NCBI RefSeq assembly: GCF_014490035.1
Contig: NZ_CP061008.1
Location: 1,860,001 to 1,924,000 of the forward strand
Source: Achromobacter xylosoxidans
GTDB taxonomy: Bacteria; Pseudomonadota; Gammaproteobacteria; Burkholderiales; Burkholderiaceae_B
Reading direction: 5' to 3'
Length of the DNA: 64,000 bases
Under the pieces are notes generated by a model. The model ran no database searches, was not told where the DNA came from, and saw only the letters and a program-made list of their open reading frames with translations. The first letter of the stretch is position 1. Every line of letters begins with the position of its first letter. Shown one piece after another: positions 25,799 to 47,162 of the stretch. The position numbers and the translations under genes were made by a program.

Positions 25799-26257
25799 CT
25801 ACGCGCCGCCTTCGGGGGCGCGCACCAGCAGCACAGGTACGGCGGCGCCGCGCATGATGCCCTCGGCGCTGCTTCCCAGCACCAGGCGGCTCGGTCCCCG
25901 GCGTCCATGCGTGCCGATGACGATCAAGTCCGCCTTCCACGCCAAGGCTTCGTCCAGCACCCTTTGCTTAACGGTCCTGTCGAGGTTTTCATATAGCACC
26001 GTGTCTGCTTCCACCTCCGCTGCCTTGGCTTTCTCCAGCGCCGCTTCGAGCACCTTTGCGCCGTTCTTTCGGACCAGGTCCAACAGCTCGCCCGCGCGAT
26101 AGCTGTACGCGTCGGCGGTAAAGGCGAACGAGAGTTCATCGATGACATGAATCAAGCGTAGGCTGGCGCCCGTGGCGCGCGCGATTCGTATGGCTTCCTT
26201 CAGGCCCAGCTCGGACGTCGGACTGCCGTCTATGGGCACAAGAATTTTCTGATACAT
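25799..26257 (-). CDS. universal stress protein (UspA family), copy 1
   Basis: 152 residues from the ATG at 26257 with GGAG upstream. The single Usp domain starts MYQKILVPIDGSPTSELGL and ends with the ATP-binding loop GTHGRRGPSRLVLGSSAEGIMRGAAVPVLLVR (G-2x-G-9x-G-S/T pattern), so it is an ATP-binding type. It is very like the UspA at 38126-38584; the two are clear paralogues sharing whole blocks such as RLIHVIDELSFA and WKADLIVIGTHGRRG. It heads the operon with nrdJ and lies 61 bp downstream of the perfect box TTGACCGTTGTCAA. Confidence 0.92.
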   Translation of the reverse strand: MYQKILVPIDGSPTSELGLKEAIRIARATGASLRLIHVIDELSFAFTADAYSYRAGELLDLVRKNGAKVLEAALEKAKAAEVEADTVLYENLDRTVKQRVLDEALAWKADLIVIGTHGRRGPSRLVLGSSAEGIMRGAAVPVLLVRAPEGGA

Positions 26258-26318
26258 GCTGGAGCTCCGCGTAGTGGGGGAACGGATACTCAGTATCGGA
26301 GGGTGCGCGTCCGGAATA

Positions 26319-26332
26319 TTGACCGTTGTCAA
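26319..26332. promoter_or_regulatory. FNR-like box 1 (uspA-nrdJ)
   Basis: TTGACCGTTGTCAA, a perfect TTGAC-N4-GTCAA dyad, 61 bp before the UspA start. Confidence 0.75.
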
Positions 26333-26399
26333 GAATGGCGCGAGGCGAGGCGTCTTGACCCGGGACGGGCAGCCGCCGCGGTTTTGCCCCCATATTTGC

Positions 26400-26413
26400 A
26401 TGACAAAAATCAA
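26400..26413. promoter_or_regulatory. FNR-like box 2 (BON protein)
   Basis: ATGACAAAAATCAA, one mismatch to TTGAC/TTGAT half-sites, 137 bp before the BON-domain gene and divergent from box 1. Confidence 0.6.
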
Positions 26414-26550
26414 CGAGAGCCCGCGGGCATGGATCAATATGTCCGGGAGGCCCAGGCCAAGAATGGGGAATCATCATATGGCCGCAACCGGGCTCGGCGA
26501 TTCCGAATTGGGCTGGACTTGGTTCAACCGCGAGCATTCAGGAGAGCATC

Positions 26551-27198
26551 ATGATCGATGCGGAACTGCGGGACAGGGTGCAGAGGGCGCTGGAATTCGA
26601 GCCCAGCGTCAATAATCTGCACATAGGCGTGGTGGCGGAGAACGGCGTAGTGACGTTGACGGGGCATGTCAGCACTTTCGCGCAGAAACTGGCCGCCGAG
26701 GAAACGGTTCAACGCGTCAAGGGAGTCCGCGGAATCGCTCAGGAGATCGAGGTGCGGATGGCTGCGGACAAGCAGCTTGCGGACGACCAGATCGCCTCGC
26801 GGGCGCTCAGCATCATTGCCTGGGATTCGACGATTCCCGATGGCAAGGTCCAGGTGTCCGTGCACAAGGGCTGGGTGACGTTGAATGGCTCCGTCGAGTG
26901 GTTCTATCAACGCGAAGCGGCGGCGCACGCGGTCCACAAGCTTTCAGGCGTGACTGGCATATCGAACCTGATCGAAGTGACGCCCTCCGTGCACGCGGGC
27001 GACGTCAAGCGGAAGATCGAGGAAGCGCTGCTGAACAGTGCGCTGGTCGAGGCCAACCGCGTGGAAGTCAGCGTGCATGACCATAAGGTCGTACTGAGCG
27101 GCCGGGTCAATAGCTGGGTCGAACGTGGCGGCGCGGAGCGGGCGGCCTGGGCGGTGCCCGGTGTGGTCGAAGTGCAGGACAAGCTGGCGGTCGGCTAG
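26551..27198 (+). CDS. triple BON-domain protein
   Basis: 215 residues with AGGAG before the ATG. Three BON domains follow one another (about 3-70, 78-145 and 148-214), each ending in the pattern G-x-V-T-L-x-G-x-V (NGVVTLTGHVSTF, KGWVTLNGSVEWF, DHKVVLSGRVNSW) and V-x-G-V-x-x-I-x-x-x-I-E-V. No signal peptide is visible, unlike OsmY-type periplasmic BON proteins, so it may be cytosolic. BON domains are thought to bind phospholipid membranes. Its neighbours and FNR-like box suggest a role in envelope protection under oxygen limitation (inference). Confidence 0.88.
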   Translation: MIDAELRDRVQRALEFEPSVNNLHIGVVAENGVVTLTGHVSTFAQKLAAEETVQRVKGVRGIAQEIEVRMAADKQLADDQIASRALSIIAWDSTIPDGKVQVSVHKGWVTLNGSVEWFYQREAAAHAVHKLSGVTGISNLIEVTPSVHAGDVKRKIEEALLNSALVEANRVEVSVHDHKVVLSGRVNSWVERGGAERAAWAVPGVVEVQDKLAVG

Positions 27199-27229
27199 GC
27201 CGACGCCGCGGCCGACCAGGGCGCCCGCC

Positions 27230-28213
27230 ATGAAAAGCATGGTGCAACGGGCTGCGGGCGAGCCTCTGACCCTGGAGCACGGCGCCACGCCCGAGCCGGG
27301 CGGCGGCGAGGTGAGGCTGAGGGTCGAGGCGTGCGCCGTCTGCCGCACCGATCTGCACGTGGTGGATGGCGAGCTGCCGGGCCTGCGCTATCCGGTCACG
27401 CCCGGGCACGAGGTGATAGGCGTCATAGAGCAGGCAGGCGCAGGCGTCGACCCGGGCGTGGTGGGGCGGCGCGTAGGCGCGGCGTGGCTGGGGAAGACTT
27501 GCGGCCAATGCGGCTATTGCCTGTCGGGGCGAGAAAACCTTTGCGATTTCGCGGAATTCACCGGCTATACGCGGGCTGGCGGCTTTGCCTCGCACCTGAT
27601 CGCAGACGCACGATACATATTTCCGGTGCCTCGGGACCGGAGTGCGGCCTCAATGGCACCTTGGATGTGCGCGGGGCTGATCGGCTGGCGAGCGTTGCGG
27701 GCAGCGGGGCCAGCGCAGAGGCTTGGCATCTATGGATTCGGGTCCGCGGGCCAGATAGTGGCGAAAGTCTGCGCCTGGCAGCGCCGGCACGTCTACGCCT
27801 TTACGCGGGCAGGGGATTTTCCTGCCCAACAGCAGGCCAGCGCGCTCGGCGCCGTATGGGCGGGAGACAGCATGAGTGACCCGCCGGAGCAACTGGATGC
27901 CGCCATCATCTTCGCGCCAGTGGGGGATCTCGTCCCTGCGGCGCTGAAAGCGGTACGCAAGGGAGGTTGCGTAGTGTGCGGCGGCATTCATATGTCGGAT
28001 ATTCCGTCCTTTCCGTACCGACTGCTATGGGAGGAGCGCCAGCTTGTATCCGTGGCCAACCTGACCCGTGCCGATGGGCGGGAGTTCATGGATGTTGCCA
28101 TCGCCTCCGACGTGCAGTGCGACGTGCGCATATATCCTCTTGAAGAGGCGAACGCGGCGTTGGACGATGTCCGCATGGGTCGTATCCAAGCAACGGCAGT
28201 CTTGATTCCTTGA
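27230..28213 (+). CDS. zinc-dependent alcohol dehydrogenase (MDR family)
   Basis: 327 residues. The catalytic zinc ligands lie in ACAVCRTDLH (Cys) and TPGHEVIGVIE (His, Glu), the structural zinc in CGQCGYCLSGRENLC (four cysteines), and the NAD(P) motif in GIYGFGSAGQIV. It resembles the AdhP/'zinc-binding alcohol dehydrogenase family protein' group, which lacks a few residues compared with typical ADH (340-350). It follows the BON gene by 31 bp and probably shares its FNR-like promoter, consistent with an aldehyde-reducing, NADH-recycling role when respiration is limited. Confidence 0.9.
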   Translation: MKSMVQRAAGEPLTLEHGATPEPGGGEVRLRVEACAVCRTDLHVVDGELPGLRYPVTPGHEVIGVIEQAGAGVDPGVVGRRVGAAWLGKTCGQCGYCLSGRENLCDFAEFTGYTRAGGFASHLIADARYIFPVPRDRSAASMAPWMCAGLIGWRALRAAGPAQRLGIYGFGSAGQIVAKVCAWQRRHVYAFTRAGDFPAQQQASALGAVWAGDSMSDPPEQLDAAIIFAPVGDLVPAALKAVRKGGCVVCGGIHMSDIPSFPYRLLWEERQLVSVANLTRADGREFMDVAIASDVQCDVRIYPLEEANAALDDVRMGRIQATAVLIP

Positions 28214-28329: not shown

Positions 28330-28343
28330 GTGATTTTGGTCAA
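28330..28343. promoter_or_regulatory. FNR-like box 3 (51-residue protein, SYLF protein)
   Basis: GTGATTTTGGTCAA, one mismatch to the consensus, 145 bp before the small gene at 28489 in an otherwise empty 275-bp intergenic stretch. Confidence 0.5.
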
Positions 28344-28488: not shown

Positions 28489-28644
28489 ATGCAACAGCCT
28501 GCCAAAACCCCGCCCGCCAAACAGGAAAAGGCGCGTTCGGATGCCAAGGAAAACGCCGAGCAACAGCGGCAGAAGGCCGAAACGGCCGAGTTGTTGGGGC
28601 GGCACAAGAATACCGGCCAGAAGGACCACAAGGGCGCACGCTGA
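28489..28644 (+). CDS. small highly charged protein, 51 residues
   Basis: Starts at an ATG with AGGAG 7 bp upstream, the best ribosome site in this interval. The product is almost entirely polar (Lys, Gln, Glu and Ala rich: MQQPAKTPPAKQEKARSDAK then ENAEQQRQKAETAELLGRHK) with a helical, coiled-coil-like middle and no hydrophobic segment. I do not recognise a family. It lies between an FNR-like box and the SYLF gene. Confidence 0.6.
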   Translation: MQQPAKTPPAKQEKARSDAKENAEQQRQKAETAELLGRHKNTGQKDHKGAR

Positions 28645-28712
28645 AACGCCGGCGGGCGTCGTGATGAACCGCGCAGCCGCGAGCCGGAATGCGCCGCAAC
28701 CCTGGAGGACTC

Positions 28713-29327
28713 ATGAAGACCCGCGTCCTTGCCATATGGCTTCAACTCCTCCTGGCCATCGTGCCTGTTGAAATCGCCTTTGGACAGCCGGCGGATTCGC
28801 TCTCGTCGGTGTCTCCCGCCGTACTCAAGCGGGTGGACCAGGAGGCGGAGGCGGCGCTATCGCGTCTCTATCTTCAATCGCGCAAAGCGCAGGCGCTGGT
28901 CGCGCGTTCCTTTGGCGTGCTGGTCGTGCCTGCGCTGCATGCGGATGGCGGCATCCTGGGCATGGCCTATGGCCGGGGCGTGCTGATCGACGCGGTGGGA
29001 GGGCGCAGCTATTACAACGCCATGGCCAGCCCCCCGGGTTCGGTGCTTGGGCTGGACGGAAAGGCGCTGATCCTGTTTTTCTCCAACTACGAGGCGTTGC
29101 GGGCGTTCCAGGCTGCCCCCGGATGGGTGGAGGGCGCGAGCGGAACCATCCAGGTCCTGGACGAGACCGCCATGGCGGGACGCAATCTGGTCATCGAGCC
29201 GATTGCGGGTTTTATCCTGTCGGACGTCGGGCTGGTGCGGGGGCTCGCGCTGAAAGGCATTCTTTTCATCAAGGTGCCTGTCTTCATGTGCGCGCAGGAG
29301 AACGGGGCTTGCGACGCCGCGCCCTGA
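28713..29327 (+). CDS. secreted SYLF-domain (Ysc84-like) lipid-binding protein
   Basis: 204 residues from the ATG at 28713 with GGAGG 5 bp before it. The first 25 residues are a signal peptide (VLAIWLQLLLAIVPVEIAFG-Q). The rest is the SYLF/Ysc84 domain: LYLQSRKAQALVARSFGVLVVP, a glycine-rich GGILGMAYGRGVLID, then GKALILFFSNYEALRAFQ. Bacterial members are periplasmic or outer-membrane associated lipid binders of unclear function. No lipobox is seen. Downstream 37 bp separate it from the convergent phaC stop. Confidence 0.82.
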   Translation: MKTRVLAIWLQLLLAIVPVEIAFGQPADSLSSVSPAVLKRVDQEAEAALSRLYLQSRKAQALVARSFGVLVVPALHADGGILGMAYGRGVLIDAVGGRSYYNAMASPPGSVLGLDGKALILFFSNYEALRAFQAAPGWVEGASGTIQVLDETAMAGRNLVIEPIAGFILSDVGLVRGLALKGILFIKVPVFMCAQENGACDAAP

Positions 29328-29364: not shown

Positions 29365-31110
29365 TCAATTCTGAAGCACGAAGCGCCCCGGGGCAGGCGT
29401 CAAGGAGGCGCCGATGGCCCCGGGCTCGCCCAGGGGCCGCAGGCCCGGCTGCGCGGGACCGGAGTGGGCATCGAGCCAGGCATGCCAATCGGGCCACCAA
29501 GATCCGGGGCGCAGGGTGCTGGCGGCCGCCCATTCGCCCGGACCGACGCGCAGCCTGTCCATTTCGCCTTCCCTTACGCGGTGCCAGCGCCCGGGATGCC
29601 CGGGCTCGCTGACGACGCCTGCGTTATGTCCGCCGCTGGCGAGAACGAAGCGGATGTCGGCGTCGGTCTGGTAGTGGATCTTGTAGATGGACTGCCACGG
29701 CGCGATCCGGTCGTTTTCGGTGCCCAGGGCGTAGATGGGCACGCGGATGTTGCGCAGGGCGATGATGCGGCCGTCGACCTGGTAGCGGCCCTCCGCCAGC
29801 TCGTTGTTCAGGAAGAGCTTGCGCAGATACTCGGCATGCATGCGGTAAGGCATGCGGGTGGAGTCCGCGTTCCATGCCATCAGGTCATTGGGCGCCGTAT
29901 GCTCGCCCAGCAGATACCTGCGCACGGCGCGCGCGGCCGTATCGCTGACGGGCCGCAGCGCCTGGAACGCGGCGGACATCTGGCCGGCTGAAAGGTAGCC
30001 CTGCGCCCACATCAGGCTTTCCAGCAAGTACACCTCGCTGGCATCGATGTACAGTCCCAGTCCGCCCGGTTCGGTGAAGTCGGTTTGCGCCGCCAGAAGC
30101 GTGAGCGTGGCCAGGCGGTCGTCCTTTTTTCCCGCCATCGCGGCGGCGGCGATGCACAGCAGGGTACCGCCCAGGCAGTAGCCCACGGCGTGCACGCGGC
30201 GGCCTGGCACGATGCGGCAAACGGCGTCCAGCGCAGCCATGAAGCCCATGTGGAGGTAATCGTCCAGGGACAGGTTCCGGTCCCGTGAATCCACATTGCG
30301 CCAGGAGATGCAGAACACCGTGTAACCCTGCGCGACCAGATGCCGGATCAGGGAGTTTCCCGGCGACAGGTCCAGCACGTAGTACTTCATGATCCACGCA
30401 GGGGTGATGAGTATCGGCTCGGGGTGCGCCGTGGCGGTCGACGGCTCGTACTGGATCAATTCGATGAGATGATTCCTGAAGACGACCGCGCCGGGCGTGA
30501 CCGCCACGTCCTTGCCTACCTGAAAGCGCTCCGTCCCTTCCTCGGGGGCGTGGCTCAGCCTGCGCTGCAGATCGGCAAGAAAGTTCATCTGGCCGGCAAT
30601 CAGGTTGCGGCCGCCTTCGGCCAGGGATCGTTCCAGCACGACGGGATTGGACCACGCGAAATTGGCTGGCGAGAACATATCGCACCACTGGGCCGCGCAA
30701 AACGACACCAGATCCGCGTGGTGGGCGGCGACGCCGGGTACATCCCTGGTGGCGTCCATCCACCATAGCCGCGCCGATTGGAATGCGTGCAACCACAGGC
30801 TGAAGGGTTCGCGCTGCCAGGCCGGCGGCGCTTGCGCGCTGTCGGCCGCGGGCGTGGAAGCGCTTCGGTTCACGCCGGTCCAGGGCAGGGCGGCGTGCCG
30901 GCACAGCGCCGCGGCTTCAGTGCCGCATTTCAACCCCAGTTCGAGCTGCTTGCCGGGCGCGGTGCAAAGGTGCATCCACCAATCGGCGAGCGCGAGCGCG
31001 AACGCGGCCGGCGAGCCTCCGCCCGTAGCCTGCGCGATCAGCGCTTCTTTCCAATGGTTCAGCGCCTGGAACGGACCTTCTTCAGTTTGCCAATTCCTGA
31101 CGCTACGCAT
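29365..31110 (-). CDS. phaC: poly(3-hydroxyalkanoate) synthase
   Basis: 581 residues, class I length. The lipase-like box GYCLGG holds the catalytic C312; the catalytic Asp is in GTENDRIAPWQS and the His in ASGGHNAGVV. The substrate region includes the conserved TPAWIMKYYVLDLSPGNSLI and VFCISWRNVDS. It polymerises hydroxyacyl-CoA into PHA granules, storing carbon and reducing equivalents. The ATG overlaps the phasin stop by 8 bp, and the pair sits behind an FNR-like box, so granule formation seems to be part of the response to low oxygen. phaA and phaB are not in this window. Confidence 0.95.
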   Translation of the reverse strand: MRSVRNWQTEEGPFQALNHWKEALIAQATGGGSPAAFALALADWWMHLCTAPGKQLELGLKCGTEAAALCRHAALPWTGVNRSASTPAADSAQAPPAWQREPFSLWLHAFQSARLWWMDATRDVPGVAAHHADLVSFCAAQWCDMFSPANFAWSNPVVLERSLAEGGRNLIAGQMNFLADLQRRLSHAPEEGTERFQVGKDVAVTPGAVVFRNHLIELIQYEPSTATAHPEPILITPAWIMKYYVLDLSPGNSLIRHLVAQGYTVFCISWRNVDSRDRNLSLDDYLHMGFMAALDAVCRIVPGRRVHAVGYCLGGTLLCIAAAAMAGKKDDRLATLTLLAAQTDFTEPGGLGLYIDASEVYLLESLMWAQGYLSAGQMSAAFQALRPVSDTAARAVRRYLLGEHTAPNDLMAWNADSTRMPYRMHAEYLRKLFLNNELAEGRYQVDGRIIALRNIRVPIYALGTENDRIAPWQSIYKIHYQTDADIRFVLASGGHNAGVVSEPGHPGRWHRVREGEMDRLRVGPGEWAAASTLRPGSWWPDWHAWLDAHSGPAQPGLRPLGEPGAIGASLTPAPGRFVLQN

Positions 31111-31516
31111 TCTTGCCGCCGGCGGAACTCATCGCGTTGCCGTTGGCGAGAAACTGGCCGACGTCGAACGCGACCTCCGAGACCCGCTCCTGCCACGGAT
31201 TCTTGCTGTCCCTCAAGGTGGCGGACGCAGAGGCGGATGCCGCGCGGGCGATCTTCTCGATCTCGCGCAGGTAGTCCAGTTCACGCCCCAGCAGATCGGC
31301 GGCCAGCTTCTGCTGATAGGAGCAAATTGCGGCTACCGTGGACATGGATTCCATTTCGGCGTGCGCCTGCTGCGCGAAGGCGAGCATTTCCTTGTCGGTC
31401 TTCAGCTGCAGGGCGCGTAGCTGCCGGGCGCTGTCGAAATAGTTCTCGGCCATGGCCAGCGCAGTATTCAGGCCATACTTGTACAGTGCCACATAGGGCT
31501 CGTAATCCGGTTGCAT
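31103..31516 (-). CDS. phasin-like granule-associated protein
   Basis: 137 residues, all helical and amphipathic without signal peptide. It has the shape and length of phasins (ALYKYGLNTALAMAENYFDS, LRALQLKTDKEMLAFAQQAH) and is translationally coupled to phaC by an 8-bp overlap. Phasins coat PHA granules and control their size. Direct motif evidence is modest; context is strong. Confidence 0.75.
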   Translation of the reverse strand: MQPDYEPYVALYKYGLNTALAMAENYFDSARQLRALQLKTDKEMLAFAQQAHAEMESMSTVAAICSYQQKLAADLLGRELDYLREIEKIARAASASASATLRDSKNPWQERVSEVAFDVGQFLANGNAMSSAGGKNA

Positions 31517-31606: not shown

Positions 31607-31620
31607 TTGACGAAACTCAA
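31607..31620. promoter_or_regulatory. FNR-like box 4 (phasin-phaC)
   Basis: TTGACGAAACTCAA, one mismatch in the right half-site, 90 bp before the phasin start. Confidence 0.55.
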
Positions 31621-31662: not shown

Positions 31663-32397
31663 TCATCCGCAACTGATCTTGCGGAGCGCTTCGATGTTGC
31701 GGATTTCCAGTTGCCTTCTGCGCACGCTGACCAGGGCTGCATCCTGCATGCGCGCGAAGACCCGGCACACCGTTTCCACCTTCATGCCCAGATGATTGGC
31801 GATGTCCTGGCGTGTCATCTTCAGAATGAACTCGCGGGGCGAGTACCCGTTTGCCACCATTCTCTCGGATATGCCTATCAGGAAGTGCGCGACGCGTTCC
31901 TCGGTGGTCATGCACCCCAGGGCCATGAGCAGCTCGCGGCCTTCATTGATGTCATGGGAGATCAGCCGGTTGAACTGCTGGGCGGCGATGAAGTCCTGCC
32001 GGCAGTTTCCCATCAGTTCGCAGAAGGGCAGGATGCAGACGAGGGAATCCTCCAGGGCGATCGCATCGCTGGTGTGCGTACCGGTCTCGATCGCGTCCAG
32101 TCCCAGCACGGCGCCAGCGACGGGAAAGGCGGTGATCTGTTCCAGGCCGGACGGATTGGTGGCCCGGATTTTCACCGACCCGGAGCGCAGCCGGTACAGA
32201 TTCTGCAAAGGGTCGCCTGCGCGATAGATGGCCTCGCCCTGATGGACCAGCCGGCGGGCGTGGGGCGTGGCCGCAGGCGCCAGGCCTGCGTCTGTGCCGG
32301 CGTGGCAGATACGGGCGAGAGGGCAGACTTCGCAATCGCCCATCACCTCGGCGCGTAATGGCAATCGGGTTGCGGAAAACGGCGAGAGGGTATCCAT
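31663..32397 (-). CDS. FNR-type oxygen-sensing Crp-family regulator
   Basis: 244 residues. The cysteines C22, C25 and C31 (CEVCPLARIC) plus C121 (LEDSLVCILP) match the spacing of the [4Fe-4S] ligands C20, C23, C29 and C122 of E. coli FNR, so it should be an O2-labile sensor. Residues 45-150 form the cyclic-nucleotide-binding-like fold and a long dimer helix; residues 170-235 the winged helix. The recognition helix reads KVETVCRVFARMQ, keeping the glutamate (E208) and arginine (R212) that read the G of TTGAT, but the serine of E. coli FNR (S212) is a cysteine (C211). It lies inside the island whose promoters carry FNR-like boxes and is their best candidate regulator. SD GAGG precedes the ATG. 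Confidence 0.92.
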   Translation of the reverse strand: MDTLSPFSATRLPLRAEVMGDCEVCPLARICHAGTDAGLAPAATPHARRLVHQGEAIYRAGDPLQNLYRLRSGSVKIRATNPSGLEQITAFPVAGAVLGLDAIETGTHTSDAIALEDSLVCILPFCELMGNCRQDFIAAQQFNRLISHDINEGRELLMALGCMTTEERVAHFLIGISERMVANGYSPREFILKMTRQDIANHLGMKVETVCRVFARMQDAALVSVRRRQLEIRNIEALRKISCG

Positions 32398-32591: not shown

Positions 32592-33245
32592 TCAGGCGTC
32601 CGGGCTGTCCTTGTCGTCGATCAACCGGTGCCGGATTGCATAGCGCACCAGGTCGGCCTGGTTGCGCAGCTGCATCTTGACCAGGATGCGGCATTTATAG
32701 GTGCTGATGGTCTTGACGCTCAGGAACAGCAGCCGGGCGATGTCCGAGTTGTTCAGGCCCGAGGCCAGATGCCGGAATACCGACAGTTCACGGTCGGACA
32801 GCAACAGGTGGGGCAGGGCGCCTGTATCGCCGTGCCGTTCGAAAGCGATGCTCTCGGCCAGGGACTGGCTCAGGTACCGGCCTCCGCCCGCGACCTTGCG
32901 CACCGCTTCCACCAGCTCCTCGGCGGCGCTGTCCTTGGTCAGATATCCTGCTGCTCCCGCCTTGATCGCGCGCACGGCGTACTGCTGTTCCCCATGCATG
33001 GTCAGCACCAGTATCGGGATTTTCGGGTACTCATGCCGGATCTGGCGGATCAGGTCCACGCCGTCACGGCCGGGCATGGACATGTCCAGCACCAGCAGGT
33101 CCCACGGGCGCTGGGCCATCAGCTTCAAGGCTTCTGATCCGTTGCCGGCCTCGCCTTCCACCGAGATGTCGCCGGCATGTTCCAGCAGGCGTCTTAGTCC
33201 CGCGCGCAGCAGCGTGTGGTCATCGGCCAGAATGACGGTGATCAC
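32592..33245 (-). CDS. NarL/LuxR-type response regulator
   Basis: 217 residues from a GTG at 33245 that overlaps the kinase stop (GTGA) and has GGGAGG 5 bp upstream. Receiver domain 1-120 starts VITVILADDHTLLRAGLRRL, with acidic D8/D9, phosphorylated D54 (LLVLDMSMPG) and switch residues in VLTMHGE and AAGYLTKDS. A LuxR helix-turn-helix (about 150-205: LSDRELSVFRHLASGLNNSD then LSVKTISTYKCRIL) binds DNA. It is the same class as NarL, DosR/DevR and FixJ. It pairs with the PAS histidine kinase encoded before it. Confidence 0.93.
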   Translation of the reverse strand: MITVILADDHTLLRAGLRRLLEHAGDISVEGEAGNGSEALKLMAQRPWDLLVLDMSMPGRDGVDLIRQIRHEYPKIPILVLTMHGEQQYAVRAIKAGAAGYLTKDSAAEELVEAVRKVAGGGRYLSQSLAESIAFERHGDTGALPHLLLSDRELSVFRHLASGLNNSDIARLLFLSVKTISTYKCRILVKMQLRNQADLVRYAIRHRLIDDKDSPDA

Positions 33246-34330
33246 GCGGCCTCCCACCTGGATTCCGGGGGTTGCGCGGGCATCTGCGCATGCAGGCGGA
33301 AGCCCCCTTTTTTCCGCGTGTGTATCGTGACCTCGCCGTTGAGCAGCCGGACCCGTTCGCGTATGCCTTGCAGGCCCAGCGACAAGGGCAGTTTCTTGGC
33401 CAGGCTTTCCGGGGCGGCGCCCACGCCGTTGTCCTGGACGGTCAGCTCGCACGTCGATTCCGTGCAGCGCAGCCGCAGTTGCACCTTGGTGGCCTGGGCA
33501 TGCTTGGCGATATTGGTCAGCGCCTCCTGGACCACGCGAAACAGCGTGGTGGCTACAGGCTTGCCGGGCTCGGCCGGCCCGATGTCGATTTGCGCTTCCA
33601 CGTCGATACCGTATCGGGAAACGAAATTCGCCACCAGCCATTCGACCGCGGCGGCAAGCCCCAGATCGTCCAGCATGACCGGGCGCAGGTCGGAAGCGAT
33701 GCGCCGCAACGAAGCGAAGGTTTTCTTGATCAGGCGCCGCATGGCGCGCACGCGGGCGCGCATGTCGTTGTCGTCGGGTGCGAAGCCGGCTTCCAGCTGG
33801 GACAGTTCCATGGTCAGCGCGGTCAGGGTCTGCCCCAGATCGTCGTGCAACTCCCGGGCAATGTGCTTTTTCTCCTGCTCGCGCACATGCAGCAAGGCGT
33901 TCGAAAGACGAGTCAGTTCGTCGCGGGACGCGCGCAGCGCCTGATCGACGCGCTGCCGCTCGGTGATGTCCCGTAGGAAGATGGAGAGAAATACGCCTGC
34001 CTCCGTCCTGGTTTGGGAAATGGAGGCTTCCATGGGGAATTCTTCGCCGTTGGACCGCAGGCCCCATAACGGTCCGCCCAGACCCATCTGGCGTTCGGAA
34101 ATTCCAGTGAGCTTGAATCGGTCGACGTGCCGGGCATGGGCGGTGCGAAACCGCACGGGAATCAGGGTGTCGAGGTTCGCCCCTATGGTGTCGTCCGCAA
34201 GGCAAAGGAAGACGCGCTCGGCGGCCGGGTTGAACATCACGATGCGCTGGCGCTCGTCTATCGTGATAATCGGCTCGGTGGCGGATTGGATGATGTCGAG
34301 CAGTGGCGGCGCGCTGAACGTGTGCTTCAT
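33242..34330 (-). CDS. soluble PAS histidine kinase (HisKA_3 type)
   Basis: 362 residues, no membrane segment, hence cytoplasmic. Residues 8-125 form a PAS domain (IIQSATEPIITIDERQRIVMFNPAA), ending with the PAC segment FLSIFLRDITERQR. A coiled linker leads to HisKA_3 with the phospho-accepting H162 in KKHIARELHDDLGQ, followed by HATPase_c with QEALTNIAKHA, DNGVG and LGLQGIRERVRLL. This is the NarX/DevS class that pairs with NarL-type regulators. The PAS domain lacks the FixL-type haem His that I can identify, so ligand or redox signal is unknown. The same operon encodes its regulator, with translation coupled. Confidence 0.92.
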   Translation of the reverse strand: MKHTFSAPPLLDIIQSATEPIITIDERQRIVMFNPAAERVFLCLADDTIGANLDTLIPVRFRTAHARHVDRFKLTGISERQMGLGGPLWGLRSNGEEFPMEASISQTRTEAGVFLSIFLRDITERQRVDQALRASRDELTRLSNALLHVREQEKKHIARELHDDLGQTLTALTMELSQLEAGFAPDDNDMRARVRAMRRLIKKTFASLRRIASDLRPVMLDDLGLAAAVEWLVANFVSRYGIDVEAQIDIGPAEPGKPVATTLFRVVQEALTNIAKHAQATKVQLRLRCTESTCELTVQDNGVGAAPESLAKKLPLSLGLQGIRERVRLLNGEVTIHTRKKGGFRLHAQMPAQPPESRWEAA

Positions 34331-35529: not shown

Positions 35530-35543
35530 TTGACATTGATCAA
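35530..35543. promoter_or_regulatory. FNR-like box 5 (CBS-flavodoxin)
   Basis: TTGACATTGATCAA, both half-sites matching TTGAC or TTGAT, 80 bp before the CBS gene start. Confidence 0.7.
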
Positions 35544-38639: not shown

Positions 38640-38653
38640 TTGACCGGAGTCAA
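38640..38653. promoter_or_regulatory. FNR-like box 6 (uspA-mgtA)
   Basis: TTGACCGGAGTCAA, a perfect TTGAC-N4-GTCAA dyad 55 bp before the UspA start. It ends 1 bp from the stop of the upstream L,D-transpeptidase gene. Confidence 0.75.

Positions 38654-39475: not shown

Positions 39476-39503
<28 letters not shown>
38655..39503 (-). CDS. L,D-transpeptidase (YkuD domain), secreted
   Basis: 282 residues from the ATG at 39503, preferred because AAGGACGC precedes it; the next ATG (39479) overlaps the ATPase stop by ATGA. A signal peptide (RTAAATLLCAAAASQVSAQ) directs it to the periplasm. The YkuD catalytic stretch is GTPQSKGCIRIPATLNRL, with the nucleophile Cys in SKGC and upstream His in MRLQMHATDP. 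Such enzymes form 3-3 cross-links or attach lipoproteins to peptidoglycan, making walls resistant in stationary phase. A Lys replaces the usual His of SHGC. It terminates the UspA - P-type ATPase operon. Confidence 0.85.
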
Positions 39504-41941
<2,438 letters not shown>

Positions 41942-41952: not shown

Positions 41953-42378
41953 CTAATTGACCAGCACCACCGGGATGTGAACCGTGTGCAGCACCTTCAA
42001 GGTGGTCGAACCCAGCAACAGGCTGCCGGCCGCGCCCAGTCCGCGCGAACCCATGACGATATGGTCGCATCCCTGCTCGGTGGCATAGGCCTTGATGGAC
42101 TCGGCGACGTTGCCGATCCGTGTCGCCCTTTGATAGAGGATTCCTGACCGGTCCAGCAGGACCTCCGACTCCGCCAGGGCCATCTTCGATTCGTCGTCGT
42201 AGTACTCCTGGATCGCCTCCGGCTCAAAAAAGGCCAATACCGCTCCCGAAACAATGGGCATTTGCACGTTCAGCAGGTGTATGGAGCAAGGGCCGTGTTC
42301 GCGCACATGGTCGACCATATAGCGCACGGCGCGCAGGGAGTTGCCCGATCCATCCACGGGAATAAGTACGTTTTTCAC
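41953..42378 (-). CDS. universal stress protein (UspA family), divergent member
   Basis: 141 residues from a GTG at 42378 with GGAGG 4 bp before it. The Usp fold is seen in VKNVLIPVDGSGNSLRAVRY and the ATP loop GSRGLGAAGSLLLGSTTLKVLH. It is not close to the two paralogues above. It heads an operon with the P2-like ATPase and L,D-transpeptidase, 80 bp after box 7. Confidence 0.9.
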   Translation of the reverse strand: MKNVLIPVDGSGNSLRAVRYMVDHVREHGPCSIHLLNVQMPIVSGAVLAFFEPEAIQEYYDDESKMALAESEVLLDRSGILYQRATRIGNVAESIKAYATEQGCDHIVMGSRGLGAAGSLLLGSTTLKVLHTVHIPVVLVN

Positions 42379-42458: not shown

Positions 42459-42472
42459 TTGACGCCGGTCAA
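42459..42472. promoter_or_regulatory. FNR-like box 7 (uspA - P-type ATPase - L,D-transpeptidase)
   Basis: TTGACGCCGGTCAA, a perfect TTGAC-N4-GTCAA dyad 80 bp before the GTG start. Confidence 0.75.
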
Positions 42473-42544: not shown

Positions 42545-42558
42545 ATGACAAAGGTCAA
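42545..42558. promoter_or_regulatory. FNR-like box 8 (hsp20 - double-Usp)
   Basis: ATGACAAAGGTCAA, one mismatch, 81 bp before the Hsp20 start on the other side of the divergent promoter from box 7. Confidence 0.65.
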
Positions 42559-42639: not shown

Positions 42640-43065
42640 ATGTCGCGATTGACGCAATACAGCCCATTCATGAGTGAACCGTTGTCGGACGTATTCCAGG
42701 CGTTCCTGCGGCCGATTCGACAGAACCTGGATGAACAGACTCCACGGATGGATATCGACGTCACCGAGGCGGGCGACAAGTATGTCCTGAAGGCGGAGGT
42801 TCCCGGGATAGACAAGAAGGACATTTCGGTGGAGATCGATGGAAACACCGTGATGATCTCGGCCAACAAGGAAAAGAGCAGCGAAACGAAAGAGGCGGGG
42901 AACGTCGTCCGCCAGGAGCGCTTCTGGGGGCGGATCCAACGCTCGGTATCGCTGGCCAGCCCGATAGACCAGGCGGCGGCCAAGGCGGTCTGCGAGAACG
43001 GCGTGCTGATCCTGACCCTGCCCAAGGCGGCTGGAAGCCGGAACAAGACGCTGCAGATCGAATGA
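42640..43065 (+). CDS. small heat-shock protein (Hsp20/alpha-crystallin)
   Basis: 141 residues with AAGGAG before the ATG. The alpha-crystallin domain spans about 35-130 (MDIDVTEAGDKYVLKAEVPG ... VSLASPIDQAAAKAVCENGVL), with the closing LTLPK. Its C-terminal I-x-I tail is reduced to LQIE. It is an ATP-independent holdase. In Mycobacterium the orthologue type (Acr) is the dominant DosR product, and here too it lies in the island behind an FNR-like box. Confidence 0.93.
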   Translation: MSRLTQYSPFMSEPLSDVFQAFLRPIRQNLDEQTPRMDIDVTEAGDKYVLKAEVPGIDKKDISVEIDGNTVMISANKEKSSETKEAGNVVRQERFWGRIQRSVSLASPIDQAAAKAVCENGVLILTLPKAAGSRNKTLQIE

Positions 43066-43111: not shown

Positions 43112-43945
43112 ATGTATCGCCGAATTGCCGTTCATCTAGACCATGGATTCGATTGTTCTCGCCGGGTCGAATTCTCCCTGCAACTCGCCCGCGCCAATGA
43201 CGCTCATCTGACCGGGATATTTGCCAGCTACATCTCGCCCGGCTATTTCTACGATGAGGCAGGCCTGTGGGTCCGTTCCATGGACATGGCCAAGCAGATA
43301 AACGAGAAAGGGCGCACGGCTGTCGAGCTGACGTTCAGTCAGGCCGCACGCGAGAGCGGCGTGGCGGCTTCATGGCGGCAGGGCGAGGACGCGCCTGCGG
43401 AATGTGTCGTCACCCATGCCCGCTGTTCCGATGTCCTGGTCATCAGTCAGGAGAATCGAAACGACGTGGACGCGGCTGTCGGCAATTACTTCGTGGAGCA
43501 GGTCTTGATGTCCGCGGGGCGGCCCGTCATCGTGTTGCCCTCGGCCGGCAAGTTCAATGGGGCGGGCGCCCGGGTGCTGTATTGCTGGAACCGTAGCCGG
43601 GAGGCCGCTCGTGCGATCGCCGACGCGGCTCCGCTTCTGCGCAATGCGAACGCCCTGGCCGTTCTGACGACGGACGACCTGGATGCCAGCGGGGGCGCGC
43701 AAGTGCCGTTCGAAGACCTGGCGGCGTACTGCGCCTGCCATGGCTTTCCTTTGCCGGAACACCAATCCCGCAGCACGAACGAGATAGACGTGGGTGACGT
43801 CATCCTGAGCACAGCCGCCGATTTCAACGCGGATCTGATCGTCATGGGCGCGTATGGACACAGCCGCATGCGCCAATGGGTGATGGGTGGCGCCACGCGT
43901 TCGCTGCTCGCCGCCATGACGGTTCCGGTCCTGTTCTCCCACTGA
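43112..43945 (+). CDS. tandem-type universal stress protein
   Basis: 277 residues, two Usp halves. The N-terminal one begins MYRRIAVHLDHGFDCSRRVE and is degenerate at its ATP loop, whereas the C-terminal one (about 155-277) ends with GAYGHSRMRQWVMGGATRSL, resembling an ATP-binding loop. It follows hsp20 by 46 bp and is likely co-transcribed with it from box 8. Confidence 0.87.
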   Translation: MYRRIAVHLDHGFDCSRRVEFSLQLARANDAHLTGIFASYISPGYFYDEAGLWVRSMDMAKQINEKGRTAVELTFSQAARESGVAASWRQGEDAPAECVVTHARCSDVLVISQENRNDVDAAVGNYFVEQVLMSAGRPVIVLPSAGKFNGAGARVLYCWNRSREAARAIADAAPLLRNANALAVLTTDDLDASGGAQVPFEDLAAYCACHGFPLPEHQSRSTNEIDVGDVILSTAADFNADLIVMGAYGHSRMRQWVMGGATRSLLAAMTVPVLFSH

Positions 43946-44004: not shown

Positions 44005-44250
44005 CTAGATTCCGTTCTCCTGGAGATCGCGGCGCCGGCGCGTTCTGACGATCGTTCCGTCGGGAAGCTGGTAGGTTCCGGATCCGATCTGGTCGACCAA
44101 TTGCCCGTCGGGCAGGCAGCAGTAAAAGAACGTGTTCGCAGGCGCTTCCTGCGGCCGCAGCTGACTGCGTCGTTCGATTCTGTAGGTGGTTCCGTCCGCG
44201 GCAACGGCGATGACGGCGATGGCGTTTCGGGAGCGGGGTGGCGTGATCAC
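44005..44250 (-). CDS. small hypothetical protein, 81 residues
   Basis: Read from a GTG at 44250 preceded by AAGGAGA at 5-bp spacing, a strong start. The product has a region AVIAVAADGTTYRIERRSQL then FFYCCLPDGQLVDQIGSGTY with repeated DG turn motifs (DGTTY, DGQLV, DGTIV), which suggests a small beta-sheet domain. It does not belong to a family I recognise. Box 9 lies 174 bp upstream on its side and 119 bp on the side of the alcohol dehydrogenase, so either could use it. Confidence 0.6.
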   Translation of the reverse strand: MITPPRSRNAIAVIAVAADGTTYRIERRSQLRPQEAPANTFFYCCLPDGQLVDQIGSGTYQLPDGTIVRTRRRRDLQENGI

Positions 44251-44557
44251 GGGTTCTCCTTGGAACGAGTGGGGCTTCCTGGCAGAGGCGATGATGGGAA
44301 GGCCAGGATCGCGTTGCCGTGAGTGCTGCAGGCCGCCAATGACGGGGCGGGGATATGAGTGCCGCCCTGCTGGGGCCATGGCCAGTGGCACAGCGTCAAG
44401 ATACATGCCCCATGCGCGGAAAAATTGACCTCGGTCAAGTTTCCCCCGGTTCCGTCTTTTAAGCTGAAAGCACGTCTCGCGGTCCGATGGCGACAGGGGC
44501 GTACCCTCGCGCGCGCCGAAAATTGAACCATCCCCGTTTCAGAGCAGGAGATAAGCC
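44251..44557. other. 307-bp divergent intergenic region with FNR-like box
   Basis: No further gene seen. It includes box 9 at 44425-44438 and the start signals for the small gene (minus) and the alcohol dehydrogenase (plus). Confidence 0.5.
44425..44438. promoter_or_regulatory. FNR-like box 9 (zinc alcohol dehydrogenase)
   Basis: TTGACCTCGGTCAA, a perfect TTGAC-N4-GTCAA dyad 119 bp before the alcohol dehydrogenase start. Confidence 0.75.
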
Positions 44558-45658
44558 ATGACCTCCATGATGAAAGCAGTCGTGTTTGCCGGGAAGGATC
44601 ACATCGAAATACGGGAAAAGCGCATTCCGGACGTCGGCCCGAACGACGCGCTGCTGAAGATCACGACCACGACCATTTGCGGCACCGATATCCATATCGT
44701 CAAGGGCGAGTATCCCGTAAAGCCTGGCCTGACCATCGGCCACGAACCGGTAGGCGTCATCGAGAAACTGGGAAGCGCCGTGACGGGCTACGCCGAGGGC
44801 CAGCGCGTGATCGCCGGCGCAATCTGTCCGAACTTCAATTCATACGCCGCCCAGGACGGCGCCCCTTCCCAGGACGGCAGCTATCTGGTGGCCAGCGGCA
44901 TGTGCGGATGCCACGGATACCGCGCCACCGCGGGATGGCGGTTCGGCAACATGATCGATGGCGCCCAGGCCGAGTACCTGCTGGTTCCCGACGCGCAGGC
45001 CAACCTGGCGCCGGTGCCGGACAGCTTGAGCGACGAGCAGGTGCTGATGTGCCCGGACATCATGTCCACCGGATTCAAAGGCGCCGAGAACGCCAACATC
45101 CGCATAGGCGACACGGTGGCCGTGTTCGCGCAAGGCCCGATAGGACTTTGCGCGGCCGCAGGCGCCCGGCTGCTGGGGGCGACCACTGTCATCGGCGTGG
45201 ACGGCAATGCGCAGCGCCTGGAAATATCGCGCTCGTGGGGCGCGGACATCGTCCTGAACTTCCATGACTGCGACGTCGTGGAGGAAATCTTGCGGCTGAC
45301 GGGCGGAAAAGGGGTGGATTCCGCCATTGAAGCGTTGGGACAGCAGAGCACCTTTGAATCCGCCTTGCGCGTATTGAAGCCGGGAGGAACGCTGTCCAGC
45401 CTGGGCGTTTATTCCAGCGACCTGAAGATTCCGGTGTCCGCGTTCGCGGCTGGACTGGGCGACCACAGGATCAACACCGCGCTCTGCCCCGGCGGAAAGG
45501 AGCGTATGCGCCGCCTCATGAGCGTTCTGGAATCAGGCCGCCTGGACCTCGCAAAAATGGTCACGCACCGCTATACCCTCGACCAGATTGCGGACGCCTA
45601 CGATCTCTTCGCAAACCAGCGCGATAACGTGTTGAAGGTCGCCATCCAGCCTTCTTGA
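44558..45658 (+). CDS. zinc-dependent alcohol dehydrogenase, secondary-alcohol type
   Basis: 366 residues with AGGAG before the ATG. Catalytic zinc ligands are C41 in ICGTDIH and the GHE of TIGHEPVGVIE; the four-cysteine structural-zinc loop is replaced by a CGCHG patch, as in the NADP-dependent secondary alcohol dehydrogenases of the Clostridium beijerinckii group. The dinucleotide motif is FAQGPIGLCAAAGARL. It would reduce aldehydes or ketones, e.g. for redox balance. It is a single-gene unit, followed by a phosphoribosyltransferase after 88 bp. Confidence 0.9.
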   Translation: MTSMMKAVVFAGKDHIEIREKRIPDVGPNDALLKITTTTICGTDIHIVKGEYPVKPGLTIGHEPVGVIEKLGSAVTGYAEGQRVIAGAICPNFNSYAAQDGAPSQDGSYLVASGMCGCHGYRATAGWRFGNMIDGAQAEYLLVPDAQANLAPVPDSLSDEQVLMCPDIMSTGFKGAENANIRIGDTVAVFAQGPIGLCAAAGARLLGATTVIGVDGNAQRLEISRSWGADIVLNFHDCDVVEEILRLTGGKGVDSAIEALGQQSTFESALRVLKPGGTLSSLGVYSSDLKIPVSAFAAGLGDHRINTALCPGGKERMRRLMSVLESGRLDLAKMVTHRYTLDQIADAYDLFANQRDNVLKVAIQPS

Positions 45659-45746
45659 ATGCTCTTCGTTCCCGGCCCGGGTACGGACGCCGCGGGATAA
45701 CGGCATGCCGGCCCGGAATGCAGCAGTCTGCGGCGTAGGTGCTCTG

Positions 45747-46436
45747 ATGAATATTTCCTTCAAGAACCGGCGGGAGGCCGGGGTGTTGCTGGCGCGCCTG
45801 CTGATGCGGTACGCAGGCCGTCCAGACGTGATCGTGCTGGCGTTGCCACGGGGCGGCGTGCCGGTGGGGTTCCAGGTCGCCGCGGCGCTGGACGCGCCGC
45901 TTGATGTCGTGATGGTGCGCAAGATCGGAATGCCCGGGTATCCCGAGTATGCGATCGGCGCGATAAGCGGCGATCAGACTCTGTTTCAATCCGAGGCTAT
46001 CGAGGCTTACGGCATCTCGCCGGGCGCGATAGAGCCTATCGTTCTGCGCGAGCGCAAGGAAATCGAGCGCCGTGAAGCCTTGTATCGCGCGGGGAGGCCG
46101 CCGCCGCAGTTGCAGGGCAAGATCGCCATACTGGTCGATGACGGCCTTGCGACCGGCTCGACCATGCGCGTGGCCCTGCGGTCCATACGCAAGGCGGGAC
46201 CGGCAAGAATCGTGGTCGCGGTGCCGGTCGCCGCTGCCGAGACCCGGCAGCAGCTTGCGGACGAGGCGGATGAAATGATCTGCATCGGCACGCCGGTTCC
46301 GTTCTATGGCGTGGGGCAATGGTACGAGGACTTCGAGCAGACCGAGGATGACGAGGTCATACGTCTGCTGCGGGAAGCGGAGCGTAGCCACCCGCTTTCC
46401 GCATGGACCGCGGCTTCTGCGCCGCATCGCGGCTGA
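45747..46436 (+). CDS. phosphoribosyltransferase-domain protein
   Basis: 229 residues. PRPP motif IAILVDDGLATGSTMRVAL (about 130-148), with upstream VIVLALPRGGVPVGFQVAAAL and VRKIGMPGYPEYAIGAI that belong to the 'phosphoribosyltransferase/dienelactone hydrolase-like' family of unknown substrate. These genes often neighbour UspA and Hsp20 genes. An in-frame codon 42 bp upstream is possible, but the ATG at 45747 has AGGTG before it. Confidence 0.87.
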   Translation: MNISFKNRREAGVLLARLLMRYAGRPDVIVLALPRGGVPVGFQVAAALDAPLDVVMVRKIGMPGYPEYAIGAISGDQTLFQSEAIEAYGISPGAIEPIVLRERKEIERREALYRAGRPPPQLQGKIAILVDDGLATGSTMRVALRSIRKAGPARIVVAVPVAAAETRQQLADEADEMICIGTPVPFYGVGQWYEDFEQTEDDEVIRLLREAERSHPLSAWTAASAPHRG

Positions 46437-46547
46437 TGCCCGTTCGGGCCCAAGGCAGACAGACCATGGAAACGACAAGCAATGCTTGCTCGAGAAGATC
46501 GGCGACGCACATGCCACGGCGTGTCGCCGACAGGTTCGGCCAGTATG

Positions 46548-46561
46548 TTGACGATTGTCAA
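46548..46561. promoter_or_regulatory. FNR-like box 10 (Met-rich periplasmic protein)
   Basis: TTGACGATTGTCAA, a perfect TTGAC-N4-GTCAA dyad 88 bp before the ATG. Confidence 0.75.
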
Positions 46562-46649
46562 TGTTCATCATACAGACCGATATACGCTGGCTCTGATCAT
46601 CCTTTCAGCGCCGAAGCCGTTGGGGATACCAACCACATGGAGACCGATC

Positions 46650-47162
46650 ATGAAGATGCGCGAGCTGGCCTTATACGCATTGTTTGCCTCATTGCTTCCC
46701 GCCTTGGCGGGCGCCGCGGCCCCCAAGGAGCAACCCGCTGCTGCGCCGCAGGCTGCGCAACCCACCGAGAACATCGAACAATTTGACAAGAAGGCGGCCG
46801 AAGCCAGGGAAAATCTGGAGAAGATGCAGCAGCAAATGAACCAGATCCAAAAGACCAGCGACCCGGCCGAGCGTCAGAAGCTGCTTCGAGAGCATCAGGC
46901 GTTGATGCAGCAGACCATGGGCATGATGGGTCAGATGTGGAACGGCGGCGCGATGGGGTGTTGCGCGGCGGATGGCGGCGGGCGCCACCATCAGGGAGGT
47001 CCAATGATGGGATGGGGCGCCATGCGGGGGAATTACTCGAATCAGAGTCCCGAACAGATCAGGGAGCGCCAGTACATGAGGGACCAGTACATGGGTATGC
47101 AGCAGCGGATGATGGAACAGATGATGCAGCAGCAACTCAACGGCGGCGCCCCGAACCGGTGA
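46650..47162 (+). CDS. secreted Met/Gln-rich protein
   Basis: 170 residues with GGAGA before the ATG. A signal peptide ends at LAGA-AA. The mature part has a coiled-coil helix (about 42-75, EARENLEKMQQQMNQIQ) followed by a methionine- and glutamine-rich region (TMGMMGQMWNGG, CCAADGGGRHHQGG and YMRDQYMGMQQRMMEQMMQQ). The many Met, two Cys and His suggest binding of a soft metal such as copper in the periplasm. No family is recognised. The only upstream element is box 10. Confidence 0.75.
   Translation: MKMRELALYALFASLLPALAGAAAPKEQPAAAPQAAQPTENIEQFDKKAAEARENLEKMQQQMNQIQKTSDPAERQKLLREHQALMQQTMGMMGQMWNGGAMGCCAADGGGRHHQGGPMMGWGAMRGNYSNQSPEQIRERQYMRDQYMGMQQRMMEQMMQQQLNGGAPNR

Follow-up and report, generated by a model that had tools for sequence, protein, structure and literature searches.

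The question raised by this locus is whether the stress-survival genes that fill 23 kb of an Achromobacter genome form one regulon-like unit and, if so, to which known low-oxygen system this unit belongs. An earlier note on this DNA had described it as a DosR-like, independently assembled hypoxia-survival module at positions 25799 to 47162 of the window, which is the whole stretch of 64,000 nucleotides analysed and to which all coordinates refer. The interval holds except at its left edge, just outside which lies the class II ribonucleotide reductase gene (23987-25783), so that the unit runs from nrdJ (23987) to 47162. The genes listed in the note are present: we confirmed the class II ribonucleotide reductase, four universal stress protein (Usp) genes, one of them tandem, Hsp20, a two-CBS-domain protein, two P-type ATPases, PhaC, two Zn-dependent alcohol dehydrogenases, a PAS-HisKA_3 kinase, a NarL/DevR-class regulator and an FNR-type regulator. 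The names L,D-transpeptidase, phasin and flavodoxin are tentative because their scores fall below the Pfam cut-offs. The block additionally contains genes for a BON protein, a SYLF-like protein, a phosphoribosyltransferase and a Met/Gln-rich, probably exported protein, as well as two small genes.

Ten intergenic FNR-type boxes with at most one mismatch head ten predicted transcription units (strands are given as + or -). The perfect box TTGACCGTTGTCAA (26319..26332, -) precedes usp1 (25799..26257, -; PF00582, E 1.6e-31) and, as second gene of that unit, nrdJ (23987..25783, -), whose 598-aa product scores 483 bits with TIGR02504 NrdJ_Z (cut-off 400) and was aligned with Thermotoga maritima NrdJ (1xjk). 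In the opposite direction, box ATGACAAAAATCAA (26400..26413, +; one mismatch) precedes the gene for a protein with three BON stretches (26551..27198, +; PF04972, E 3.8e-49) and adhA, encoding Zn-dependent alcohol dehydrogenase 1 (27230..28213, +; PF08240, E 3.7e-27). Box GTGATTTTGGTCAA (28330..28343, +; one mismatch) stands before a 51-aa open frame that was read by eye and has no assigned function (28489..28644, +), and before the gene of a SYLF-like exported protein (28713..29327, +; NF049970, 92.6 bits, below the cut-off of 200). Box TTGACGAAACTCAA (31607..31620, -; one mismatch) heads the probable phasin gene (31103..31516, -; PF09361, E 0.012, below cut-off), which overlaps phaC (29365..31110, -), encoding a class I-like PHA synthase (PF07167, E 2.8e-47; TIGR01838, 455 bits, below the cut-off of 623). 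The perfect box TTGACATTGATCAA (35530..35543, -) belongs to the regulatory operon cbs-flavodoxin-HK-RR-FNR, where HK and RR are the kinase and the response regulator.

To the right of this operon, the perfect box TTGACCGGAGTCAA (38640..38653, -) precedes usp2 (38126..38584, -; PF00582, E 7.4e-31) and, downstream of it, the gene of an MgtA-type P-type ATPase (35564..38110, -; TIGR01524, 772 bits, above 611). A further perfect box, TTGACGCCGGTCAA (42459..42472, -), heads usp3 (41953..42378, -; PF00582, E 1.8e-26), for which a GTG start is proposed within a longer ORF extending to 42423, followed by the second ATPase (39476..41941, -; PF00122, E 4.8e-36), which is type II-like with scores below the specific (equivalog) cut-offs listed (TIGR01522, 362 bits, cut-off 798). 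The stop of this gene is overlapped by the start of the probable L,D-transpeptidase gene (38655..39479, -; PF03734 (YkuD), E 0.0012, below cut-off), whose product has an SKGCIR motif. Box ATGACAAAGGTCAA (42545..42558, +), with one mismatch here and perfect at the same position in several relatives, precedes hsp20 (42640..43065, +; PF00011, E 7.3e-17) and the tandem usp4 (43112..43945, +; PF00582 in two stretches, E 6.6e-18). Upstream of hsp20, five Achromobacter loci also share a conserved element, TTCGTCCCCGTTTT. The perfect box TTGACCTCGGTCAA (44425..44438, +) precedes adh2 (44558..45658, +; PF00107, E 7.2e-28), which encodes a threonine-dehydrogenase-like Zn-dependent alcohol dehydrogenase (its top NCBIfam match, L-threonine 3-dehydrogenase, is below cut-off), and the phosphoribosyltransferase gene (45747..46436, +; PF00156, E 3.2e-16). 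This box has a -10-like element in both directions and could also serve a small gene (44005..44406, -; ORF alone, no family above cut-off), a possible eleventh unit outside the ten. The last perfect box, TTGACGATTGTCAA (46548..46561, +), stands before the gene of the Met/Gln-rich, probably exported protein (46650..47162, +; no family above cut-off).

All ten boxes are followed, at an invariant distance, by a -10-like element, an A and a T that occupy positions 23 and 27 beyond the box in the direction of the gene; the other three sites of the cluster with no or one mismatch are inside genes and have no such A/T pair. Sites of this quality number 13 in the 23.4 kb cluster and 4 in the remaining 40.6 kb of the window. 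Six of the genome's 39 perfect TTGAYNNNNRTCAA boxes lie within 20.2 kb where 0.12 would be expected (Poisson P 3e-9, an optimistic value since the stretch was cut at its own outermost boxes). The A/T pair has a 5.5% chance of occurring in either direction. In 19 Achromobacter loci it accompanies 64 of 67 boxes, in 35 related kinase loci 54 of 80 and in 20 control loci 1 of 3; the corresponding box densities per 20 kb are 3.58, 2.63 and 0.16. It should be noted that the loci are related and their boxes are not independent. Judged by these boxes and their class II promoter geometry, the idea of a coordinated module put forward in the note appears well founded.

The control loci are 15-20 kb regions of Burkholderiales around homologues of adh2, a gene rejected as an island marker and used in this way because it stands alone in other members of the order. 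They contain no usp, hsp20, BON, adhA, phaC, cbs, ATPase or nrdJ gene and only 3 FNR-type boxes in total. These loci bear directly on the view that unrelated stress genes have come to lie side by side here by chance. Usp, alcohol dehydrogenase and P-type ATPase genes are indeed common, and the accessory genes are reshuffled between species; however, the absence of all eight companion families from the controls and the co-linearity of the core in 19 of 19 Achromobacter loci make this view barely credible. Conservation of gene order, which the note had named as a check, is thus found for the regulatory core and not for the accessory genes.

Of 43 genomes of the genus, 24 lack the kinase. Related kinase-regulator loci exist elsewhere in Burkholderiales, and in most of them an FNR gene and Usp genes lie close by; 12 of the 35 have no Usp, several of these being short contigs. 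As a marker, the island FNR has a top match of 42% outside its own genome in a draw of 200 genomes of the order. The mgtA gene was rejected as a marker outside Achromobacter, its other matches (at most 56% identity) having no island around them in the loci inspected. A four-gene block left of the island is found in 8 kinase-negative genomes and in genomes G444 and G456, in which the kinase lies elsewhere relative to it (on another contig or 74 kb away); the right-hand neighbours were not detected beside the block in these genomes, and hence no clean empty site could be recognised.

At the centre of the island is a regulatory core which, as far as its domains can be interpreted, contains its own pair of likely oxygen sensors, the kinase and the FNR-type regulator. 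The core operon is co-linear in the window and in 18 further Achromobacter loci retrieved by way of the kinase: cbs, HK, RR and FNR occur in order on one strand in all 19, the flavodoxin gene in 18, and in 17 an FNR-type box lies no more than 250 bp upstream of cbs. In the window the operon begins with the two-CBS-domain gene (34994..35449, -; PF00571, E 2.6e-31), followed by the flavodoxin-like gene (34456..34974, -; PF12724, E 0.00045, below cut-off) and the gene of a soluble PAS-HisKA_3-HATPase kinase (33242..34330, -; FixL PAS 8js5, E 1.6e-13; HisKA_3, E 1.9e-15). The PAS domain is FixL-like and has His65 and Met82, with the proximal His aligned with the heme ligand of FixL; this His is kept in 54 of 54 loci and the Met in 51. 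The domain probably binds heme, although the His motif alone is no proof of it. An AlphaFold2 model of the kinase (pLDDT 80; pTM 0.42, which is low) gave, among the 50 Foldseek matches listed, LOV-kinase chimeras at the top, many DesK chains and no FixL, and hence supports a predicted PAS plus DesK-type kinase and not heme. The response regulator (32592..33239, -; PF00072, PF00196) is of the NarL/DevR class, with VraR, NarL and DevR among its best PDB matches (DevR 3c3w, E 8e-28, behind VraR and NarL).

Such an operon may be read as a cascade of the FixLJ-FixK type, with the kinase-regulator pair as master switch, like DosS-DosR, and FNR as its target. The sharing of one operon by a FixL-like PAS kinase, a NarL/DevR-class regulator and an FNR-family gene fits this reading, as do the activation of a fixK-lacZ reporter by Burkholderia FixLJ in low oxygen, described in PMC5234846, and the Castellaniella-type relatives, which keep the PAS His and miss part of the FNR Cys set. 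It is nonetheless rather unlikely: of the two kinds of motif tried, the FNR box is the one recurrent promoter motif seen and GGGAC-type palindromes are absent from the 19 Achromobacter loci, and the FixL of the Burkholderia cepacia complex is a longer protein that reaches residue 851 and has predicted membrane segments.

The FNR-type regulator is encoded by the last gene of the operon (31663..32397, -; E about 4e-40 with FNR-type regulator structures). It keeps the four Cys ligands, three N-terminal and one central, and a CRP-type HTH. All four are present in 19 of 19 Achromobacter loci and in only 20 of 30 FNR proteins outside these, so that iron-sulfur sensing is not universal. The ETxSR recognition helix is absent from the island protein, whose helix (VETVCR) reads ETVCR, as in 17 of the 18 other Achromobacter loci and L260; the other 29 aligned FNR proteins have ETVSR, and among 89 database matches the residue is C in 37, S in 47 and neither in 5. 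From these alignments, ETVCR is taken as a substitution inside the FNR family and not an exit from it.

A further possibility is a self-contained hypoxia switch travelling with its own regulon. In this joint reading, the relay of heme-PAS kinase and NarL-class regulator and the iron-sulfur FNR paralogue, in one autoregulated operon, would set two oxygen thresholds; the Ser-to-Cys paralogue would read a private box, TTGAC-N4-GTCAA, in Achromobacter, insulating the island from general FNR; and the core would be the lxa-type control unit (see below) across Burkholderiales. We regard it as tentative and on the improbable side; if true, the private box would clearly exemplify how a change in one recognition-helix residue can separate an accessory regulon from housekeeping FNR. 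Alternatively, the boxes may be read by the general FNR/Anr of the genome (C1:2554489-2555187), the island FNR being redundant or minor, which has somewhat less than an even chance. The general paralogue (L240) retains the full set of four Cys and the common ETVSR helix, and TTGAY/RTCAA boxes are spread over the whole genome, one of them lying about 450 bp before the nrdD match. Against it stands the share of half-sites with C as the inner base, which is 11 of 12 for the perfect island boxes versus 22 of 66 in the rest of the genome (Fisher P 2e-4), and 99 of 134 in the Achromobacter loci (ETVCR in 18 of 19) versus 83 of 160 in the 35 other loci, at equal GC. Whole genomes with the kinase have 6.3 TTGAC-N4-GTCAA sites versus 2.9 without it (P 8e-6), island sites included; once the boxes of the fetched loci are removed, the values are 4.5 (19 kinase-bearing genomes) versus 2.9 (24 others; P 0.055), and a reversed-pattern control also differs (2.4 versus 1.5 per genome, P 0.04), so that the counts over whole genomes lend little support to a private box, which favours the general regulator. 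The accompaniment of the helix change by C-type boxes is possibly new, as is the dual-sensor core.

Whichever paralogue binds, a fall in oxygen would lead an FNR-type activator to occupy TTGAC-N4-GTCAA-like boxes centred near -41, and the ten units would be switched on together. The outputs would be Usp proteins, Hsp20, the MgtA-type and type II-like P-type ATPases, NADH-linked dehydrogenases, PHA synthesis, oxygen-independent dNTP supply and envelope proteins, from which we infer a survival phenotype. Since the operon of the island activator itself carries an FNR-type box, a positive loop would result. The kinase, with its FixL-like, probably heme-containing PAS domain, and the NarL/DevR-class regulator would act as a second sensor, probably adapting the response to a different oxygen or redox range through targets of the regulator that we also infer. 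Two reports point the other way. The passage of PMC6471707 on three-day biofilms of A. xylosoxidans AX08 gives uspA and a tandem-type usp as down, in a comparison in which oxygen was not the variable and for genes that may or may not belong to such a locus in AX08; that of PMC6446978 on Ca. Accumulibacter describes an FNR site before phaC and no accompanying oxygen-dependent phaC change.

How, then, does the island relate to known systems? The DosR regulon comprises Usp proteins, Hsp20, a two-CBS protein, a class II ribonucleotide reductase and a P-type ATPase, and its box is a GGGAC...GTCC palindrome. The likeness to DosR claimed in the note is borne out by gene content: the island shares the parts list, a DevR-class regulator and a HisKA_3-type kinase (E 7.8e-4 with the DevS catalytic domain 3zxo). 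In contrast, the sensor of its kinase is PAS and not the GAF of DosS/DosT, and it has FNR boxes, an FNR gene inside the operon, and MgtA and PHA genes. Four GGGAC...GTCC palindrome patterns gave no match in the 19 Achromobacter loci, and the palindrome was rejected as a control site; the 35 other loci have 6 both-strand matches, that is, 3 sites (L265, L266, L287). Equivalence to CtpF is unsupported for the first ATPase, which is of the MgtA type, and the second is only type II-like. With FixL-FixJ-FixK the island shares a FixL-like PAS kinase, a LuxR-type regulator and an FNR/FixK-family gene acting together, but its kinase is a soluble 362-aa HisKA_3 protein, its FNR keeps four Cys, and a single operon holds the whole set together with the CBS and flavodoxin genes. 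The Anr/FNR regulons of Pseudomonas and Escherichia coli have the same box type, class II spacing and Usp targets (PMC6127331), whereas the island gathers many targets around a dedicated FNR paralogue.

The closest counterpart is the low-oxygen-activated (lxa) locus of Burkholderia cenocepacia, BCAM0275-BCAM0323, whose likeness to DosR is already stated in PMC6127331. According to PMC6127331, PMC3759415 and PMC9104464, citing Sass et al. 2013, it is induced in low oxygen and needed for anoxic persistence; its regulator is likely a FixK/Anr protein encoded elsewhere, BCAM0049 (PMC6127331). Shared with the island are clustered Usp (single and about 30 kDa), Hsp20, BON, a threonine-dehydrogenase-like Zn-dependent alcohol dehydrogenase and a PHB-related gene (PMC6127331); the Achromobacter locus differs in having nrdJ, PhaC/phasin, MgtA, the CBS gene and the L,D-transpeptidase. 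The comparison was made through the published gene table and Paraburkholderia plasmid loci. In these plasmid loci, HK, RR, REC and FNR genes and a flavodoxin gene are annotated together with the lxa families DUF1488, cytochrome c, nitroreductase and MBL and, in L301, ketoacyl reductase, BON and Hsp20. Identities between the island and the pPHS1_P locus of P. graminis are 52% for HK, 56% for RR, 38% for FNR, 55% for the annotated ZnADH (with adhA), 49% for Hsp20 and 40% for BON. The P. graminis DUF1488, cytochrome c, nitroreductase, MBL and PhbB have no tblastn match in the window (E 1e-5), which makes the island a variant of the lxa kind and not a plain member.

In summary, independent assembly is the part of the note that is not supported: other Burkholderiales loci also have the kinase-regulator-FNR core and several of the effector families, with counterparts among the gene families published for lxa, and on this ground we file the island as an lxa-kind variant. 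From its gene content, boxes, promoter geometry, conserved core operon and conserved ligand residues, it is probably a variant of the Burkholderiales low-oxygen survival locus of the lxa kind, with units that would be jointly activated by FNR when oxygen falls, and not the dormancy system of tuberculosis invented a second time. The exact boxes and promoters are now given as testable targets. The comparison suggests that lxa-type loci contain a regulator set of FixL-like PAS kinase, NarL-class regulator and FNR-type protein, and shows the effector genes to be exchangeable around a constant sensor core. With Achromobacter, whose members are opportunistic lung bacteria, a further genus joins the bearers of such a locus, which the cited papers describe for Burkholderia.

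The genes named in an earlier note were found between nrdJ (23987) and 47162, with some corrections to coordinates and names, in a 6.76 Mb genome of one contig. Among named organisms its closest relatives are Achromobacter: the MgtA of the window is 92% identical to an Achromobacter MAG protein and 87% identical to that of A. anxifer. The class II ribonucleotide reductase (RNR), NrdJ, is an extra enzyme, because class Ia and class III RNRs are likewise encoded in this genome. Gene orientation and spacing predict ten transcription units: usp1-nrdJ, BON-adhA, small gene-SYLF, phasin-phaC, cbs-flavodoxin-HK-RR-FNR (the core operon), usp2-mgtA, usp3-ATPase2-L,D-transpeptidase, hsp20-usp4, adh2-phosphoribosyltransferase and the gene at 46650. 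The product of this last gene (46650-47162), which stands alone behind its own FNR-type box, is short, probably exported and very rich in Met and Gln. A molybdopterin oxidoreductase is encoded at 52479-55394, about 5 kb past the right edge of the cluster.

The core was compared across 19 Achromobacter loci, comprising the window and 18 kinase-centred loci from other genomes of the genus. All 19 share the order cbs, histidine kinase (HK), response regulator (RR), FNR on a single strand; 18 also have the flavodoxin gene, and 17 have a box no more than 250 bp from cbs. The accessory genes vary and are reshuffled. In the closest relative (G408, contig C15, locus L179), mgtA is reduced to its last 210 residues, placed between cbs and usp2, the result of a recent deletion within the cluster. 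The kinase is found in 19 of the 43 genomes of the genus (E 1e-60) and, at E 1e-75 and with the window's own genome counted, in 31/268 genomes of the family (5/43 genera) and 23/399 genomes of the order (16/158 genera). In all of 35 further kinase loci, the RR gene follows the kinase; 26 of them carry an FNR homologue on the same strand no more than 3 kb away, 23 show at least one Usp match (several contigs being short), and in four (L261-L264) hsp20 precedes cbs. The gene block to the left of the cluster (20813-23864; L302-L311 elsewhere) is also present in eight kinase-negative genomes and in two whose kinase sits elsewhere; the position of the cluster therefore varies between species.

The FNR-type boxes are concentrated in the cluster. 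Genome-wide, TTGAYNNNNRTCAA has 39 sites, compared with four for the same pattern reversed, and six of them lie between 26319 and 46561, a stretch with edges set at the outermost boxes, versus 0.12 expected; for the stricter pattern TTGACNNNNGTCAA, five of the eight sites in the genome are inside the cluster. With up to one mismatch, the cluster contains 13 sites and the remaining window four. Ten of these 13 lie between genes, each followed, in the direction of a gene, by an A at base 23 and a T at base 27 past the box; the three intragenic sites lack this pair. At this spacing a -10-like hexamer falls at the position required by class II FNR promoters centred near -41. The box at 44425, next to a small gene (44005-44406) outside the ten predicted units, has a -10-like element both ways. 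The 54 kinase loci together hold 147 boxes, 144 of them outside matched genes, and the A and the T are found in 88 and 91, respectively, of 135 gene-oriented rows, in which a box between divergent genes enters twice. A TTGACGCGCATCAA box (G000 C1:3753399) is located about 450 bp ahead of the class III nrdD match, so that two oxygen-tolerant or anaerobic RNRs may share FNR-type control. In five Achromobacter loci (e.g., L180:16636 and L183:13069), a conserved TTCGTCCCCGTTTT element stands ahead of the box nearest hsp20 and might serve as an RR site.

The recognition helix of the FNR protein reads ETVCR in 18 of the 19 Achromobacter loci and in L260, and ETVSR in the other 29 proteins. The inner base of the half-site is C (TTGAC) in 11/12 half-sites of perfect island boxes versus 22/66 elsewhere in the genome (P 2e-4), and in 99/134 in the Achromobacter loci versus 83/160 in the 35 others, at nearly equal GC contents (65.2% and 65.9%). 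The preference for an inner C goes with the helix change, an association that does not imply cause; whole-genome box counts with the island sites taken out lend it weak support.

The PAS domain of the kinase, whose transmitter domain is HisKA_3, aligns best with FixL. His65, at the position of the FixL heme ligand, is kept in 54/54 loci and Met82 in 51/54, a motif that suggests heme binding but does not prove it. The four FNR cysteines are kept in all 19 Achromobacter loci and in 20 of 30 other FNR proteins, the genome's own paralogue being among these 30. In Castellaniella-type relatives (L261-L264; P0160-P0172), the core's FNR-type proteins lack part of the N-terminal Cys set and the kinase still has its histidine in the PAS domain, a pattern that would fit a move of oxygen sensing to the kinase.

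As a unit the locus is well supported, and in kind it is ordinary; its usefulness lies in the predicted promoters and regulators it yields, and in the testable hypothesis that the island FNR reads TTGAC-N4-GTCAA apart from the general FNR paralogue. No description of this locus was found in the open-access papers searched on Achromobacter and this subject. The closest known system is lxa, the low-oxygen-activated locus of Burkholderia cenocepacia, whose induction and role in anoxic persistence were reportedly established by Sass et al. in 2013. It is described as a 50-gene cluster induced by low oxygen and required for anoxic persistence (PMC6127331, PMC3759415, PMC9104464), and Table 2 of PMC6127331 includes six Usp, Hsp20, BON, Zn-ADH, PhbB, MBL, DUF1488 and cytochrome c, among others. 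Two annotated Paraburkholderia plasmid loci (L301 and L312) combine many lxa families with HK-RR-REC-FNR; of their plasmids, pPHS1_P is conjugative, and on pOLGA1 genes for arginine deiminase and for a second F0F1 ATP synthase are found close by. The window proteins are 33-56% identical to those of the first of these loci. On a B. cenocepacia replicon, HK and RR match at 56 and 55%; an FNR gene is found some 10 kb off, and few of the other locus genes occur within the 41 kb seen. Judged by the shared families and the HK-RR-FNR matches to the Paraburkholderia loci, the window holds an lxa-type locus in variant form. The earlier note had proposed a DosR-like module, independently assembled: the likeness to this mycobacterial dormancy regulon holds, and had already been drawn for lxa (PMC6127331), whereas independent assembly is not supported. 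Compared with lxa, it lacks several families and has nrdJ, PhaC/phasin, MgtA, CBS and the L,D-transpeptidase as its own additions.
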